Assembly: GCA_026014595.1 (NCBI GenBank)
Contig: JAOZHY010000009.1
Span: 62,001 to 126,000, forward strand
DNA length: 64,000 nt
Direction of reading: 5' to 3'
From: Candidatus Bathyarchaeota archaeon
GTDB taxonomy: Archaea; Thermoproteota; Bathyarchaeia; Bathyarchaeales; Bathycorpusculaceae
The stretch's first letter is position 1, and each line of letters opens with the position of its first letter. Shown one piece after another: positions 7,376 to 35,510 of the stretch. The translations under genes were made by a program, and so were the position numbers. The notes under the pieces are model-generated. The model was not told the origin of the DNA. It did no database searches and saw only the letters and a program-made list of their open reading frames with translations.

Positions 7376-8344
7376 GTGCTGCTTGCTGTCGCCGTTCTCG
7401 TGTTAGCCATAGTCCTAGACTTGATTCTTGGTGACCCTTCGCCGAATTATCCTGAGAAAACAGCGTTCAAGCTGCATCCAACCGTGCTGATGGGCAAATT
7501 CACCAAGCTGCTGGAACCGCACTTCAAAAGCCCAGACCCGCAAACAGCCAAGCTCCTCGGAGTTCTCTTGGCTTTGACGGTGATTGCCACATTTGCGGTT
7601 CCCGTTTACCTCGGCTTGTGGGCGCTTTACACGCTGGTCAGCGTCTTCGTTTACGCTTTCTTCGGCATCATCCTCCTCAAACTCACCATATGCATAAAAC
7701 TTGAAACCGACTGGGCGAAAGCCGCAGCCAAAGCCATCCAGCAAAACGACCTCACAGAAGCAAAAAAATACAGCCACTTCAGCAGAAGAGACAGCAAAGA
7801 CCTAAACGGCGCCCAAATAAGCTCAGCGGTCATCGAATCCATGGCGGAGAACCTCATAGACTTCAAACTCAGCCCAATCCTCGCATTCGCCCTCTTCGGC
7901 GTCACAGGCGCCATCGCGTTCCGCGCAGTCAACACGCTCGACGGCATGGTTGGCTTCAAAGACCCCGAACACCTGCACACAGGCTGGTTCAGCGCCAACC
8001 TCGACCACGTTGTAAACTTTATCCCTTCGCGGTTGACAGGCATCCTGATCGTAGCAGCCGCAGCCATTCTTGGCGAAGACTACAGGAACGCTTGGACGGT
8101 TGCCCGCAGAGACCACCAAAAAACGCCAAGCCGAAACCACGGCTGGCCAATGGCAGCCATGGCTGGAGCACTACGAGTGCAGCTGGAAAAACCTGGACAA
8201 TACGTTCTCGGCGACGAGTTGGAGCCACTGTCTCCCGACAAGATATTGCTTGCGCTGAAGCTTCGGAACATGGCTGTTGTCCTGTGCGTGCTGCTGAGTT
8301 TGCCCATTATCCTGCTTGTGCGCTTGTACTTTTTGCCGCTTTAG
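7376..8344 (+). CDS. cbiB: Adenosylcobinamide-phosphate synthase CbiB/CobD
   Basis: An integral membrane protein of 322 residues that attaches aminopropanol (or its phosphate) to adenosylcobyric acid in cobalamin synthesis. Family motifs are LDLILGDPSPNYPEKTAFKLHPTVLMG at the N-terminus, SRRDSKDLNGAQISSAVIESMAENLID in the centre, FRAVNTLDGMVGFK, and DHQKTPSRNHGWPMAAMAGAL (each seen in the expected order). Hydrophobic spans lie at about 2-18, 60-100, 165-185, 215-235 and 295-320. The start is GTG. It is a lone cobalamin gene in this window, so corrinoid synthesis depends on genes elsewhere. Confidence 0.95.
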   Translation: MLLAVAVLVLAIVLDLILGDPSPNYPEKTAFKLHPTVLMGKFTKLLEPHFKSPDPQTAKLLGVLLALTVIATFAVPVYLGLWALYTLVSVFVYAFFGIILLKLTICIKLETDWAKAAAKAIQQNDLTEAKKYSHFSRRDSKDLNGAQISSAVIESMAENLIDFKLSPILAFALFGVTGAIAFRAVNTLDGMVGFKDPEHLHTGWFSANLDHVVNFIPSRLTGILIVAAAAILGEDYRNAWTVARRDHQKTPSRNHGWPMAAMAGALRVQLEKPGQYVLGDELEPLSPDKILLALKLRNMAVVLCVLLSLPIILLVRLYFLPL

Positions 8345-21721: not shown

Positions 21722-22276
21722 GTGAGCCTGTACGATGAACTTTATACTGTTTGGCGGCGTGAAATCGGAAACGCCGCGCTCTCGGGTTTGCCGCCTGATT
21801 TTTACGTGCGGATTGCAGATTACCTGCGCCGACTAAGCGAAGAACGCAGAATGCTTGACAAGAAGACGGTGAAGGCGACGCTGCTGGAGCATGAGGAAGA
21901 ACATGTTAGGCGAATGGTTGAAGAGTTGGTCTGGGCGCGATACAAGAAACTGGTCAAGCTGGTAACGGAGAGCGGAAAAGTGCCAGAAGACCTGCTATCA
22001 GCCGAGGAAGCACGAATGTTCGAGGGTTTCATTCCTTTTGCAGCGGCGTACCAACAGTTTGCAAAGGGACTGTTACAGGGTCAAATCACGCAGGTGGAGG
22101 CGGAGAAGCCGCACAAGCGGGTTACCCTCAGGTTTGTGAAGCCTGTTCCAGCCATCATCGGCGGGGACATGAAGGCTTACGGTCCTTTCATGGTTGAGGA
22201 TGTCGCGTCGGTCCCCGTGGAGAACGCCAAGCTCCTAGTCAAGCAGGGTTTGGCTGTACTGGTAGAGGTTTCTTAG
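21722..22276 (+). CDS. GINS complex subunit (Gins51/Sld5-Psf1 type)
   Basis: A 184-residue GINS protein. The A domain is helical (SLYDELYTVWRREIGNAALSGLPPDFY, then the EERRMLDKKTVKATLLEHEEEHVRRMVEEL helix), and the C-terminal B domain includes VRFVKPVPAIIGGDMKAYGPF-like residues. The A-then-B order is the Gins51 (Psf1/Sld5) arrangement. GINS activates the MCM helicase and links it to primase and RecJ/GAN. It starts with GTG two bases after the priS stop. Its last 38 bp overlap the end of the opposed archaeosortase gene. Confidence 0.9.
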   Translation: MSLYDELYTVWRREIGNAALSGLPPDFYVRIADYLRRLSEERRMLDKKTVKATLLEHEEEHVRRMVEELVWARYKKLVKLVTESGKVPEDLLSAEEARMFEGFIPFAAAYQQFAKGLLQGQITQVEAEKPHKRVTLRFVKPVPAIIGGDMKAYGPFMVEDVASVPVENAKLLVKQGLAVLVEVS

Positions 22277-23273
22277 CGTTTCTGTGGATAAGGCTCTGAG
22301 TTCCCAAGATTATCAGCGGGTACGCCACAATCCACGCGATGGAGTAGAGCGGTCCGTAATAGTTGTGGAAAAGGCGCACAGCATCGGAGTTTACGCCATT
22401 GTCCACGCCGATGATGAATATCGTGACTATGCGCAGCACGTTTATGAAATAGGTGACGGCGGCGCCGACGGCGAAGTATCCGACTTTGGCTTTAAGGCTC
22501 ATGGGCATGCGCTTGAGGAACAGGAGAGCGACTACGGTGAATATGAGGAAGCTTTCTATGCCCGCACAGGGCCAAGCGATGGCAAACGTGGCGGTTCTAG
22601 CCGAGTTTGCGGGGTCAGTGGCGGTTAGGTAAGGCATGGTGCCCGACCCCGGAAGCGTGTTGACAGTGTAGACTGTGGTGTAGCCCATCAGACTGAGGAC
22701 ATTTGCGGCGAGTGTCGCGGTTGTTGGCACTAATAACTGTAATGGGGCGAAGGTTCCGTAAGGATAGACGTTATCGATGGTGTATATGGCGCCTACCATG
22801 CCGAGAAAAAATGCCGGTACAGAGAAGCCTGTTAAGCCCTTCTTTCCGAAGATCAAGAAAGCTATGAGGCAGAAGAGTGCAGTGAAGGTGAGGTACTCGA
22901 TGGCAAGCGGCATGTTTTCTGAAAAGAAGACGCCGTTCTGCTCTGACACCGCAGCGATTGCCGCGTTTAGTCCTATGTAGTTGGCGATTACCACGTACAT
23001 AGTAGGCAGCAGCAACGCCACGATAAACGCGAGGGTGCGTGCCGAAAAGGATTTGGCTACGGGGTTGGGCTTGATTTTCTCCCAGTCCAGAATCAGCTCT
23101 AACGCGACGAGCCAGATGAAGAACAGCTGGAAGGTTCTGCCCTTCCACATCATCTCAAACGACGCCGCATCCAACAAGTATAGCCACAGGATTGGAACGG
23201 CGAACGCCAGCAACGGTAACAGCTTCACAAGTGCCTCTTCGTGCTTTTTGATGACAGCAAATATGCCTTGCAT
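22239..23273 (-). CDS. Archaeosortase/exosortase-family membrane protease
   Basis: A multi-span membrane protein of 344 residues. The three catalytic residues of the exosortase/archaeosortase family are visible: Cys236 in AWPCAGIESF, Arg281 in INVLRIVTI and His303 in LFHNYYGPLYSIAW. The family cleaves C-terminal sorting tripartite tails of surface proteins and probably joins them to lipid. A longer open frame reaches 23369, but its first 32 residues are not hydrophobic family sequence and overlap the upstream divergent gene's control region, so I use the ATG at 23273. No substrate with a sorting tail is visible in the window. Confidence 0.85.
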   Translation of the reverse strand: MQGIFAVIKKHEEALVKLLPLLAFAVPILWLYLLDAASFEMMWKGRTFQLFFIWLVALELILDWEKIKPNPVAKSFSARTLAFIVALLLPTMYVVIANYIGLNAAIAAVSEQNGVFFSENMPLAIEYLTFTALFCLIAFLIFGKKGLTGFSVPAFFLGMVGAIYTIDNVYPYGTFAPLQLLVPTTATLAANVLSLMGYTTVYTVNTLPGSGTMPYLTATDPANSARTATFAIAWPCAGIESFLIFTVVALLFLKRMPMSLKAKVGYFAVGAAVTYFINVLRIVTIFIIGVDNGVNSDAVRLFHNYYGPLYSIAWIVAYPLIILGTQSLIHRNAKKPLPVQPNPA

Positions 23274-23434
23274 TCCACGGTACCAAACCTGAATTGAATA
23301 AGATGTAACGTTCAGTCGCGGTCTAAAAAAGAATATGCAATGTGCCCAGAAAGGCTTCCATGAAGGCACTCACCGACAGATCCTGTAAAGGGTTTAAATC
23401 CATGTCCGCTTATTCTCATCAGGGAATTCGGGAA

Positions 23435-32185: not shown

Positions 32186-32577
32186 GAATCATCGCCTCCC
32201 TATGGTGTTCGGCGGTGTCAGAAAGGAACTGTCAGGAAAGCTTTGTAAAAATAGCTTGCTATTAACTGATGCTTGGCAATGTTTTGGTGTCCCAGAAGCT
32301 GAGGCTACAGAAACATGGTATCGTGGATGGGAATGGGGTTCTGGTTTCATGTTGTCCGCCTCTGTTTTCGGCTATCCACAAGCACGATTCTGATTGGACC
32401 TGTGCTTGCAGGTTGCCAAGCAACACTTCAACTTGCACTCCTGAATTTTTATTGAGATGAATCAGATTGCTTAAATAGATTTCTAATATGGTACCCGAAT
32501 CTGTAGCAGATTTTCACAACCGTTTTAATCGTTCCATGCAAAGTTATCTTTGCGGCTAACTTGAAATGTGAGACTCA
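32186..32577. other. Intergenic region upstream of the transporter and the 47-residue gene
   Basis: About 390 bp. It holds the start region of the leftward transporter and a TATA-like GCTTAAATAG near 32470 that could serve the rightward 47-residue gene. The open frame that crosses 32169-32393 has no recognisable features. I see no structural RNA or repeat. Confidence 0.4.
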
Positions 32578-32721
32578 ATGTACTCGGTATGGATTAAAAT
32601 CGACAACAGTTTGCCATGGATTGAACTCGAGGAAAACTTTCAAACCAGAGCAGAAGCACGAGCAGCGATGAAAGGAAGACGAAGCACGTTCAAGGCAAAA
32701 ATCGTCAAAGTATCAAAATGA
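32578..32721 (+). CDS. Small basic 47-residue protein
   Basis: A short gene of 48 codons including stop. The product starts MYSVWIKIDNSLPWIELEEN and continues with an alanine/arginine helix (TRAEARAAMKGRRS) and KAKIVKVSK. Beta-alpha-beta with a basic end suggests a small nucleic-acid or SPOR-like fold, but no family is recognised. It is on the plus strand between leftward genes, with GTGAGA about 6 bp before its ATG and an A/T-rich promoter-like region upstream. Confidence 0.5.
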   Translation: MYSVWIKIDNSLPWIELEENFQTRAEARAAMKGRRSTFKAKIVKVSK

Positions 32722-32819: not shown

Positions 32820-34904
32820 TTATTGAGAAGAGGCTTTCGGCTGGTAAACACACCAAGGATCCTCAGCCAAATAGTCTCCATTCAACTCTCCCGGCTCATG
32901 GAGGTCGCCGCAGTAGTCTATAAAATCGCTTGAGAGACCATAAGCGCGCGCACGGCAGCCCCCGCATATGCTTCGATGTTCACACACGCCGCATTTGCCC
33001 TTTAAGGCGTCAAAGTTGCGCATCGTTTTGAAGACCTCGGAATTAAACCAGATTTCTTTGAATGCTTTTTCGCGTATATTGCCGAGCTTCACCGGCAGAT
33101 AAGGGCATGGAGTGATGTCGCCGTTGGGATAAACGCGACAATAATAAAGCCCTGCGATGCAGCCTCGAATCCACTGTCGCATGTCCAAGCCCACATCCTT
33201 CGCGATTCGCATAAACTGCGGCGCGCACGAAGGGCGCACATTAAGCTTGCGCTTGGCAGCTTTCGCAAAAACCGTCCATATCATGTGTTCGTACTTTGCG
33301 GGGGATATGTCGGCGATTTTCACGCCTCTTCCCGTCGGCACGAGAAAGAACAGGTGGAAGTTCTCAACCCCGAGACTTTCAGCCAGCGTCATGATGTCGT
33401 CGATTTCGCCGTAGTTTTGCTGGGTCACCGTCGTGTTCACTTGAACGAGTACATTGTTTTCTTTCAGAGCCTTAATGGCGCCGACGGCTTTTTCCCAAGA
33501 ACCCTTCATGTTCCTGAATTCGTCGTGCTTTTCGGGAATGCTGGAGTCCAGACTCACGGAAACCGTGGTTATACCTGCTTCCTTTAGCCCCTTCGCCACC
33601 TTGCCATCGATCAGGGTGCCGTTGCTTCCGAGACCCATCTTGAAACCTTTACCAGCGCCATAACGGACAAGCTCAAAAATGTCTGTGCGCAAAAGAGGCT
33701 CTCCGCCGCTCAGAATCAGCAGAGGGCGGCTGACTTCGGCTATTTGATCCATGAGGCTCTTCGCTTCTTCGGTGCTGAGTTCGTTCTGGAGCTCTTGTGT
33801 GGTGGCGTTGATGTAGCAATGCGGGCACTTTAAGTTACATTTTCGAGTCACGTTCCAAGAGAGAACAAGAGGGACAAAATTTGCGGGTTGCGCTGTAGGC
33901 GAATGTGCAAGCTTGAGGTAAAACTCGCACTCTCCATGCGTGGCAATCCGCTTGGGCTGCCAAAGGGTAAACGTAAAAGGAAGCACTGTGTTCAACATAG
34001 CCTTTGCGTGCGCGTAGCAGAAGTAGGTGCAAAACAGAGCCGACACCTCATCGCTCACGCCTAAATGCGCAGTCATGTACTGGTGGCTGCCAAAGATTGG
34101 ACAGTTCAGAAACAGCATACGCCCGTCCAGCTTTGCCACGCTCATGGTGTAGTTGATGAAGTGGTCGCTCAGCATTATGGACTGCAGTTTTTCTCTCCGC
34201 ATTCCAACTTTAAGCGTCACGTCGAGGGCGATTCTGACAGTTTCCTCGCCGAATTTGTCCTGTACATTGTTCATGAAAGCCTTAAGCCGTGGAACACCGA
34301 TGCTTTTAGCCAGCTCCGCCATAAAGAGAAAACCCTTAATAGTTTCATATTCTTGCCGCAGACGCATTTCAGCTATGTGCTGCGACCAATCAAGGAACAA
34401 GCTTTCGAGACGGCCAACTACATTAGGATTTCCTGCACTCAGCGTTTTTTCCAGGGTTTTGGTCTTCTCTTTCAAGCTGGTGAACAAACGAATTTTCTCT
34501 TCAGCACTCAAACTGCCATTGGCTACCACTTTGGACGTGTTGAACTTCAACGGAACAGTTGCTTTCGTAAGCGCGGCGGCGTCGGAAAGGAAATCCCCGT
34601 AAAATCGCAACTCCTCATCTACATCAGGCAAGCATGCATGAAACTCGTTAATTAGCAAGTTGGTTTCAGTCTCCATCTTGGTAACCATAGCCATGTGGTA
34701 CAAAAGCGACCCCGCCATGCCTGGGTCAGAACGGTCGCCAGCGGAGACTCCGTAAAAAACCTCGGAGAACAAGCGCTTCGCCACATCAAGGTCTTCCGCG
34801 GCTAACGCGGTCAGAATCCGGTCCAGCTTCAGCCGCCTTTCACGCAGGAGCAGAGCCCATTTGTGGCAGTGTCTCTCATCGAATTTTGTTACTGCAACCA
34901 CCAA
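32820..34904 (-). CDS. Radical SAM/SPASM protein with large N-terminal domain (AhbC/AhbD/NirJ-like)
   Basis: A 694-residue protein. Residues about 1-340 are a helical region ending in a segment with LNCPIFGSHQYMTAHLGV, SALFCTYFCYAHAKAML and HGECEFYLKL, similar in look to DUF6125/aminothiazoline-hydrolase-like domains. The radical SAM core follows, with cluster motif CNLKCPHC and ILSGGEPLLR. The SPASM-type C-terminus has RVYPNGDITPCPYLPVKLGN and CGVCEHRSICGGCRARA, closely resembling the alternative-heme enzymes AhbC and AhbD and heme d1 enzyme NirJ. The fusion of these parts is not one I know. No heme genes are adjacent, so peptide modification is an alternative. Confidence 0.8.
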   Translation of the reverse strand: MVVAVTKFDERHCHKWALLLRERRLKLDRILTALAAEDLDVAKRLFSEVFYGVSAGDRSDPGMAGSLLYHMAMVTKMETETNLLINEFHACLPDVDEELRFYGDFLSDAAALTKATVPLKFNTSKVVANGSLSAEEKIRLFTSLKEKTKTLEKTLSAGNPNVVGRLESLFLDWSQHIAEMRLRQEYETIKGFLFMAELAKSIGVPRLKAFMNNVQDKFGEETVRIALDVTLKVGMRREKLQSIMLSDHFINYTMSVAKLDGRMLFLNCPIFGSHQYMTAHLGVSDEVSALFCTYFCYAHAKAMLNTVLPFTFTLWQPKRIATHGECEFYLKLAHSPTAQPANFVPLVLSWNVTRKCNLKCPHCYINATTQELQNELSTEEAKSLMDQIAEVSRPLLILSGGEPLLRTDIFELVRYGAGKGFKMGLGSNGTLIDGKVAKGLKEAGITTVSVSLDSSIPEKHDEFRNMKGSWEKAVGAIKALKENNVLVQVNTTVTQQNYGEIDDIMTLAESLGVENFHLFFLVPTGRGVKIADISPAKYEHMIWTVFAKAAKRKLNVRPSCAPQFMRIAKDVGLDMRQWIRGCIAGLYYCRVYPNGDITPCPYLPVKLGNIREKAFKEIWFNSEVFKTMRNFDALKGKCGVCEHRSICGGCRARAYGLSSDFIDYCGDLHEPGELNGDYLAEDPWCVYQPKASSQ

Positions 34905-35397: not shown

Positions 35398-35510
35398 TGG
35401 CGCCGGGGAAGGGACTCGAACCCCTGCGAGCCAAAGGCCCACTGGCTGGCTTGCCCACTATGCAAACTTGGATCTCGAGGCCAGCGCGATAACCACTCCG
35501 CCACCCCGGC
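35398..35510 (-). tRNA. tRNA-Ser (CGA) with intron
   Basis: Read on the minus strand the acceptor stem is GCCGGGG/CCCCGGC, the discriminator is G and CCA is encoded. The T arm is AGGGG-TTCGAGT-CCCTT. A long variable arm (GGGCC/GGCTC) marks a class II tRNA, and anticodon CGA gives serine. The anticodon stem CTGGC pairs with GCCAG only after removing a 22-nt intron at 35452-35473. The junction fits a bulge-helix-bulge: helix CTCG/TGGG with 3-nt bulges AG^A and CA^A. The intron lies at the canonical position 37/38. Confidence 0.93.

Follow-up and report, generated by a model that had tools for sequence, protein, structure and literature searches.

What does a radical SAM/SPASM enzyme do with a long uncharacterised region in front of its catalytic core, and on what kind of compound would it act? 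The question is raised by a gene in the genome (2.06 Mb) of a Candidatus Bathyarchaeota archaeon, within a stretch of 64,000 nucleotides (assembly GCA_026014595.1, contig JAOZHY010000009.1, positions 62,001 to 126,000) that we call the window and whose numbering is used throughout. We argue below that the gene product probably modifies a pigment- or lipid-like compound.

The fusion gene and its distribution

The gene occupies positions 32820-34904 of the minus strand and encodes 694 amino acids from a TTG start, joining a putative ligand-type N-terminal region to a radical SAM/SPASM enzyme. Ahead of the catalytic core lie about 345 residues, in agreement with the approximately 340 given in the initial annotation. 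The two segments bearing cysteine and histidine that it had singled out in this region, LNCPIFGSH (starting at residue 266) and FCTYFCYAH (starting at residue 291), are present in the sequence and in the alignment of its relatives.

When 84,980 species genomes were scanned, the N-terminal region turned up at 54 loci, in records titled Bathyarchaeota, Bathyarchaeum, Bathycorpusculum, miscellaneous Crenarchaeota groups, and unplaced Crenarchaeota or Nitrososphaerota. Both halves lie in a single frame at 51 of the 54 loci, two others being cut by a contig end and one being frameshifted. The 694-residue reading frame is therefore real, with chance or a chimera ruled out by the intact loci. The N-terminal region is present in 54 of the 90 genomes of the source's GTDB family. 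A sample of 398 genomes from the whole phylum contains it in 31, which all belong to one order of Bathyarchaeia. At the order level, 53 of 116 genomes (each at least 85% complete) have the fusion, and one genome (G015) holds two copies. Among the genomes searched, the fusion is confined to two lineages of one order, and the N-terminal region without the radical SAM half was seen in none of the family, phylum, order and species sets. The archaeal search suggested by the initial annotation thus returned relatives of the N-terminal domain only as the fusion and only from one order of Bathyarchaeia; no sequence relative with a known, unrelated role emerged outside it. We conclude that the fusion is a genuine family restricted to one group of uncultured anaerobic archaea.

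Residue conservation is given for alignment A3, which comprises 47 of the 54 loci plus the window (48 rows) and omits L053 and L065 (contig ends), L102 (frameshift), and L069, L075, L084 and L096 (brevity). Alignment A5 comprises 52 of the 54 loci plus the window, with L096 and L102 left out.

The catalytic half

The radical SAM core (PF04055, E 1.2e-26) spans residues 351-507, encoded at 33384-33854 (-), and carries the CX3CX2C motif as C356/C360/C363, invariant in the 48 aligned rows. Together with the SPASM match (PF13186, residues 582-641, E 2.1e-10), it makes the protein a member of the radical SAM/SPASM enzymes. The top NCBIfam models are NirJ2 (TIGR04055, 371.5 bits) and AhbD (TIGR04545, 365.9 bits), and the fusion reaches neither of their cut-offs, both 500 bits; the AhbD from the AhbABCD cluster of genome G062 is likewise below the TIGR04545 cut-off, at 441.3 bits. 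The likeness to AhbC, AhbD and NirJ claimed at the outset consequently holds for NirJ2 and AhbD, and is weaker for AhbC (180.9 bits) and NirJ (205.5 bits).

The scores also bear on another reading, in which the fusion is a maturase of RiPPs or proteins like SuiB, PqqE or SkfB. Peptides are the substrates of many SPASM enzymes, and a Foldseek comparison of the full predicted model gave only radical SAM enzymes among the 50 rows listed, with SkfB and SuiB as the best and with 7bi7, which we take to be NifB, among them. However, the NCBIfam scores are nearer AhbD than the maturase models, the Pfam comparison revealed no peptide-recognition domain, and a 47-residue ORF at 32578-32721 (+) is absent at that site in most carriers. 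With neither a recognition domain nor a universal precursor, the peptide part of the original proposal loses ground, and we regard a maturase as very improbable.

Eight SPASM cysteines (C560, C582, C600, C638, C641, C647, C650 and C685), located in residues 560-685 and encoded at 32850-33227 (-), do not vary in any of the 48 aligned rows. Their spacings of 21, 17, 37, 2, 5, 2 and 34 match the full AhbD motif of methanogens and sulfate reducers, given in the excerpted text of PMC10452713 as CX20-33CX17CX36-37CX2CX5CX2CX17-35C. Two auxiliary [4Fe-4S] clusters are therefore expected. Since the eight-cysteine pattern is widespread among SPASM enzymes, it is evidence of competence rather than of substrate. 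C589 and C665 are further invariant cysteines of the catalytic half in the 48 rows, and the motifs CAPQ(F/Y)xR, RGC(I/M)AG and VPTGRG are common to the fusion and the local AhbD, with small changes.

The tree contains 38 sequences, chosen from the available hits rather than covering all radical SAM proteins, and was flagged for long branches (rSAM375_G160 and others), which stayed in. It places the fusion as sister to a free-standing NirJ2-like protein of genome G160 with support of 100/98, the two being 52% identical over the catalytic half. This pair next joins the AhbD proteins of Bathyarchaeal AhbABCD clusters (95/93), and the clade of a 473-residue AhbD-like protein of the source genome branches outside. 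The catalytic half thus belongs to the AhbD/NirJ2 clade of SPASM enzymes, and the overall description in the initial annotation, namely such a half behind an uncharacterised N-terminal region with invariant cysteines and histidines, is supported.

Two of these relatives have neighbourhoods of their own. In G160, a Bathyarchaeum-type genome, the NirJ2-like gene (at L186:7781-9979) immediately follows another radical SAM gene, and the surroundings of this pair resemble a histidine-biosynthesis cluster. The 473-residue protein (L192:6029-7450) has its radical SAM cysteines at 127/131/134, carries an N-terminal domain and may be Gms. In the loci L192 and L193, on contig C8 of the source genome, about 26 kb contain nine radical SAM genes; several of them look B12-binding by their starts, and large secreted-looking proteins lie between.

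The front region

For residues 1-334, a Pfam comparison with E values of up to 10 gave no family, V4R included, and the sequence matches to PDB chains were confined to the catalytic half, one of them starting at residue 314. H14, H70, H248, C268, C292, C296, H299 and C326 are invariant in this region across the 48 aligned rows. Structure prediction of the full protein, proposed in the initial annotation, was carried out with AlphaFold2 and gave a pLDDT of 80.3. Because the 50 Foldseek rows listed for this model were all radical SAM enzymes, the front domain was predicted by itself, and residues 1-341 alone reached a pLDDT of 88.7 and a pTM of 0.90. The prediction consists of a helical bundle at residues 10-160 (34425-34877, minus strand; without a Pfam family at E up to 10), followed by a pair of long helices, a first beta hairpin (250-265), a further pair of helices (269-307) and another hairpin (312-332). 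The term helical domain used earlier is therefore apt for the bundle, and fails for residues 162-334 (33903-34421, minus strand), which are predicted to be alpha/beta.

In the Foldseek comparison of the front region, no match reached an E of 0.001. Palmitate-bound TRAPPC3 heads the list (E 0.016, probability 1.00), and the other early rows are mostly PoxR, MopR, TRAPP subunits, AxCeSD and H-NOX, with several designed proteins among them. The 50 rows listed by VIA comprise 20 TRAPP/Bet3 entries (one being 3kxc, presumably TRAPP/Bet3), 23 H-NOX or guanylate cyclase, 2 MopR, 2 BcsD and 3 others, with a top Z of 6.6, which is under the tool's caution line of 8. According to the excerpted text of PMC10933270, TRAPPC3, the V4R domain of PoxR, H-NOX, AxCeSD and guanylate cyclase are structurally similar and have cavities for hydrophobic ligands, members of the group bind palmitate or phenols or depend on heme, and a four-cysteine zinc site occurs in Thorarchaeota TRAPPC3 and in PoxR. 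In the fusion, C268, C292, C296 and C326 form a candidate Cys4 site that is invariant in 48 of 48 rows.

The profiles of the front region and of Bathyarchaeal ATC_hydrolase/V4R-like proteins (12, then up to 16, all from one archaeal family) were compared with no significant result (probability 5%; sub-groups 0.2-4.4%). One sub-group alignment, also not significant, is colinear with the expected pairing of C268, C292 and C326. Since the sequence profiles are not significant, it is the fold that carries the V4R resemblance. We think that the resemblance is real because the structural matches agree on one group and the four cysteines are invariant, the Z score being insufficient by itself. Provisionally, residues 162-334 appear to resemble the hydrophobic-ligand folds of TRAPP-Bet3, V4R and H-NOX proteins, and the possible cofactor-binding character suggested earlier is in keeping with this resemblance (Z at most 6.6).

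The heme-propionate motif of H-NOX proteins is YxSxR. It is absent from the N-terminal 345 residues of the window protein and is found anywhere in the first 360 residues in 3 of the 48 rows; membership of the H-NOX family was accordingly rejected. Kinship with the N-terminal region of the source genome's candidate Gms was also rejected (hhalign 0.3%).

A V4R-like domain might be allosteric, as in PoxR and MopR, so that the protein would be a sensor-coupled enzyme whose catalytic substrate is something else. V4R-effector fusions that bind hydrophobic ligands and signal in cis or trans are described in the excerpt of PMC2253512. However, the front region was never seen without the radical SAM half in the genome sets searched, and such constancy is more in line with a substrate domain than with a sensor that moves between proteins. 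We consider a sensor role decidedly unlikely.

A domain of the same kind could instead hold a membrane lipid or a quinone-like chain, with the SPASM half making or breaking C-H or C-C bonds, as in a lipid- or isoprenoid-modifying enzyme like Gms or Tes. Within this fold group, palmitate is a ligand of TRAPP-Bet3. Gms, the GMGT lipid synthase, is a GDGT-coupling SPASM enzyme near AhbC/AhbD, and its N-terminal helical domain has a hydrophobic cavity that may bind the lipid, as far as the excerpted text of PMC11186832 goes; the fusion carriers that lack HemC (see below) pose no difficulty for such an enzyme. Nevertheless, the fusion groups with AhbD/NirJ2 and apart from the clade of the source genome's candidate Gms, which served here in place of a verified Gms sequence. 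The motif CAPQ(F/Y)xR is common to the fusion and AhbD, whereas the candidate has TAPQ, and two lineages of one order are a narrower range than the archaeal spread of Gms reported in the same excerpt. We therefore see a lipid substrate as serious but somewhat unlikely.

Gene neighbourhood

The initial annotation stated that no heme genes surround the fusion, and none was found among the 50 window ORFs compared with Pfam. The sole other tetrapyrrole-related gene among these encodes CobD/CbiB (cobalamin; 7376-8344), about 24 kb away, and no NirJ1-like partner lies beside the fusion in the window. That no tetrapyrrole gene adjoins the fusion among the ORFs scanned counts against a tetrapyrrole as substrate.

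At 18 of 21 loci, a gene for an MgtE-type transporter is found downstream of the fusion in the same orientation, with gaps of 130-1476 nt. It is followed in most loci by PhoU-TrkA_C genes and, farther off, by S-adenosylhomocysteine hydrolase, whose cluster was found in 19 of 21 loci. An operon with the transporter was rejected in view of these gaps and of a conserved, putative leader element that intervenes in the window, and the arrangement looks like a conserved order rather than an operon.

The intervening element is a conserved stretch of 93 nt bearing a hairpin (TTGGCAGCCCGCA ... TGTGGATGGC) at 32361-32453 (-), upstream of the transporter gene. It occurs once each in 6 of 18 genomes with weak covariation, its covariance model finds the same site in the untrained loci L049, L040 and L041, and no Rfam family matches it. 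We regard it as a possible leader element or riboswitch of an archaeal metal transporter. The 47-residue ORF mentioned above, convergent with the fusion gene and 49-62% identical in several genera, is the only conserved small ORF adjoining the fusion. A tRNA of 110 nt by Rfam, missed by default ARAGORN, lies at 35401-35510 (-) and probably carries an intron. Elsewhere in the window, an exosortase/archaeosortase-like membrane protein (PF09721, E 1e-9) is encoded at 22239-23369 (-), beside DNA primase and GINS genes.

Co-occurrence with tetrapyrrole genes

At the family level, 54 of the 90 genomes carry the fusion and 43 carry HemC, with both in 41, HemC alone in 2, the fusion alone in 13 and neither in 34. 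The order-level counts, which rest on tallies and matched rows, give 53 genomes with the fusion and 44 with HemC out of 116, with both in 43, HemC alone in 1, the fusion alone in 10 and neither in 62 (phi 0.82, kinship ignored). HisD, taken as a control, is present in 76 of these 116 genomes with a phi of 0.67. Since the 76 include all 53 carriers, part of the HemC signal is attributable to prototrophy and lineage. Within the HisD genomes, the phi between HemC and the fusion is 0.71, implying, with kinship ignored, a tetrapyrrole signal beyond general prototrophy.

The co-occurrence with HemC thus points weakly to tetrapyrroles, and to that extent fits the tetrapyrrole part of the original proposal. 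Against a tetrapyrrole substrate, 10 of the 53 carriers have no HemC, and in genus g3 all three genomes searched (91-96% complete) have the fusion without it. In the excerpt of PMC11697101, Bathy-6 genomes make B12 and most Bathy-8 genomes do not; this difference may explain the HemC pattern without the fusion gene. The source genome has what looks, on reading the translations by eye, like a cluster of hemA, hemB, hemL, hemC, hemD, cobA and cbi genes, with HemC alone confirmed by a profile.

AhbA/B are present in 17 of the 90 family genomes, not counting one weak single hit in G024, and 16 of these 17 are fusion carriers. Some Bathyarchaeal genomes therefore probably make heme; an AhbA/B-AhbC-AhbD cluster is seen, for instance, at L183:3777-7099. 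The fusion itself could serve these archaea as AhbD, the heme synthase, with a domain added to it, as its full AhbD cysteine pattern and its place in the AhbD clade would allow. However, AhbA/B are missing from 38 of the 54 carriers, the source genome included, and the four tree genomes with AhbA/B (G062, G015, G008 and G031) each hold a separate, higher-scoring AhbD together with AhbA/B and AhbC. The presence of such clusters alongside the fusion in some genomes implies that its role is not just that of a missing heme synthase. Since the score is under the AhbD cut-off and the pathway context disagrees, though the cysteines and the clade agree, we do not file the fusion as AhbD, and consider this the least probable of all the readings. 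The co-occurrence check proposed in the initial annotation thus speaks against a direct tie to ahbA-D, and a role inside an ahb cluster was rejected on the same 38 carriers.

Proposed function and comparison with known systems

We tentatively favor, as possible rather than established, an oxidative enzyme of the AhbD/NirJ2 clade with a hydrophobic-ligand domain in cis. The ligand, the substrate and the reaction that we infer are as follows. The V4R/TRAPP/H-NOX-type domain on its helical bundle would have the task of holding, delivering or sensing a large hydrophobic small molecule, and the conserved Cys4(His) set would form a structural metal site. The SAM-cleaving catalytic half would take hydrogen from a side chain of the bound molecule, and the two auxiliary [4Fe-4S] clusters would accept the leftover electron. 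The reaction is modelled on AhbD, which turns propionates into vinyl groups, and an AhbD assay is described in the available portion of PMC3942049.

The likeliest substrate would be a tetrapyrrole, though not the one on which AhbD usually acts. We place tetrapyrroles first and lipids second, because Gms gives a clear lipid precedent; its position near AhbD, in the excerpt of PMC11186832, also demonstrates that enzymes from this part of the superfamily do not act on tetrapyrroles alone. A more specific version, in which an AhbD-related synthase with a V4R/H-NOX-like porphyrin holder makes an undescribed heme- or corrinoid-related cofactor where AhbA/B are absent, seems to us unlikely. In the case of a tetrapyrrole substrate, these uncultured archaea may produce an undescribed cofactor; in the case of a lipid, the fusion would add one more membrane-modifying enzyme to the short list explaining sediment biomarkers.

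Among known systems, AhbD is like the fusion in its radical SAM core with the eight-cysteine SPASM pattern, in CAPQ(F/Y)xR and VPTGRG, and in clade, whereas the N-terminal region of about 345 residues, C665 and a last loop longer than that of the local AhbD set the fusion apart. NirJ2 is the best-scoring family, and the sister in G160 is NirJ2-like and stands beside a second radical SAM gene; the fusion differs in being joined to the N-terminal region, in scoring under the cut-off and in having no adjacent NirJ1-like partner in the window. Gms, as excerpted in PMC11186832, shares a SPASM half near AhbC/AhbD, an extra N-terminal helical domain and obligately anaerobic hosts, but its N-terminal region is about 120 residues long, as judged from the mutants C123 and C127, whereas that of the fusion is about 345 and includes an alpha/beta domain. 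The N-terminal domain of Gms is short and has six helices.

Proteins of the V4R/TRAPP/H-NOX group have an alpha/beta fold of four helices and four strands with a hydrophobic cavity, and in the zinc-bearing V4R and TRAPPC3 proteins four cysteines tie the sheet to a helix. The front region shares with the V4R, TRAPP-Bet3, H-NOX and PoxR-MopR proteins the predicted layout of helices, hairpin, helices and hairpin, and its four invariant cysteines recall the four-cysteine zinc sites of PoxR and Thorarchaeota TRAPPC3. It differs from these proteins in having no Pfam match and no conserved YxSxR, and in being joined to a radical SAM enzyme. The combination of a V4R/TRAPP/H-NOX-like domain with a radical SAM/SPASM enzyme was not found in the libraries used or among the papers listed by searches of the open-licence PMC literature. 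In comparison with these systems, the chemistry proposed for the fusion is known and its architecture is new.
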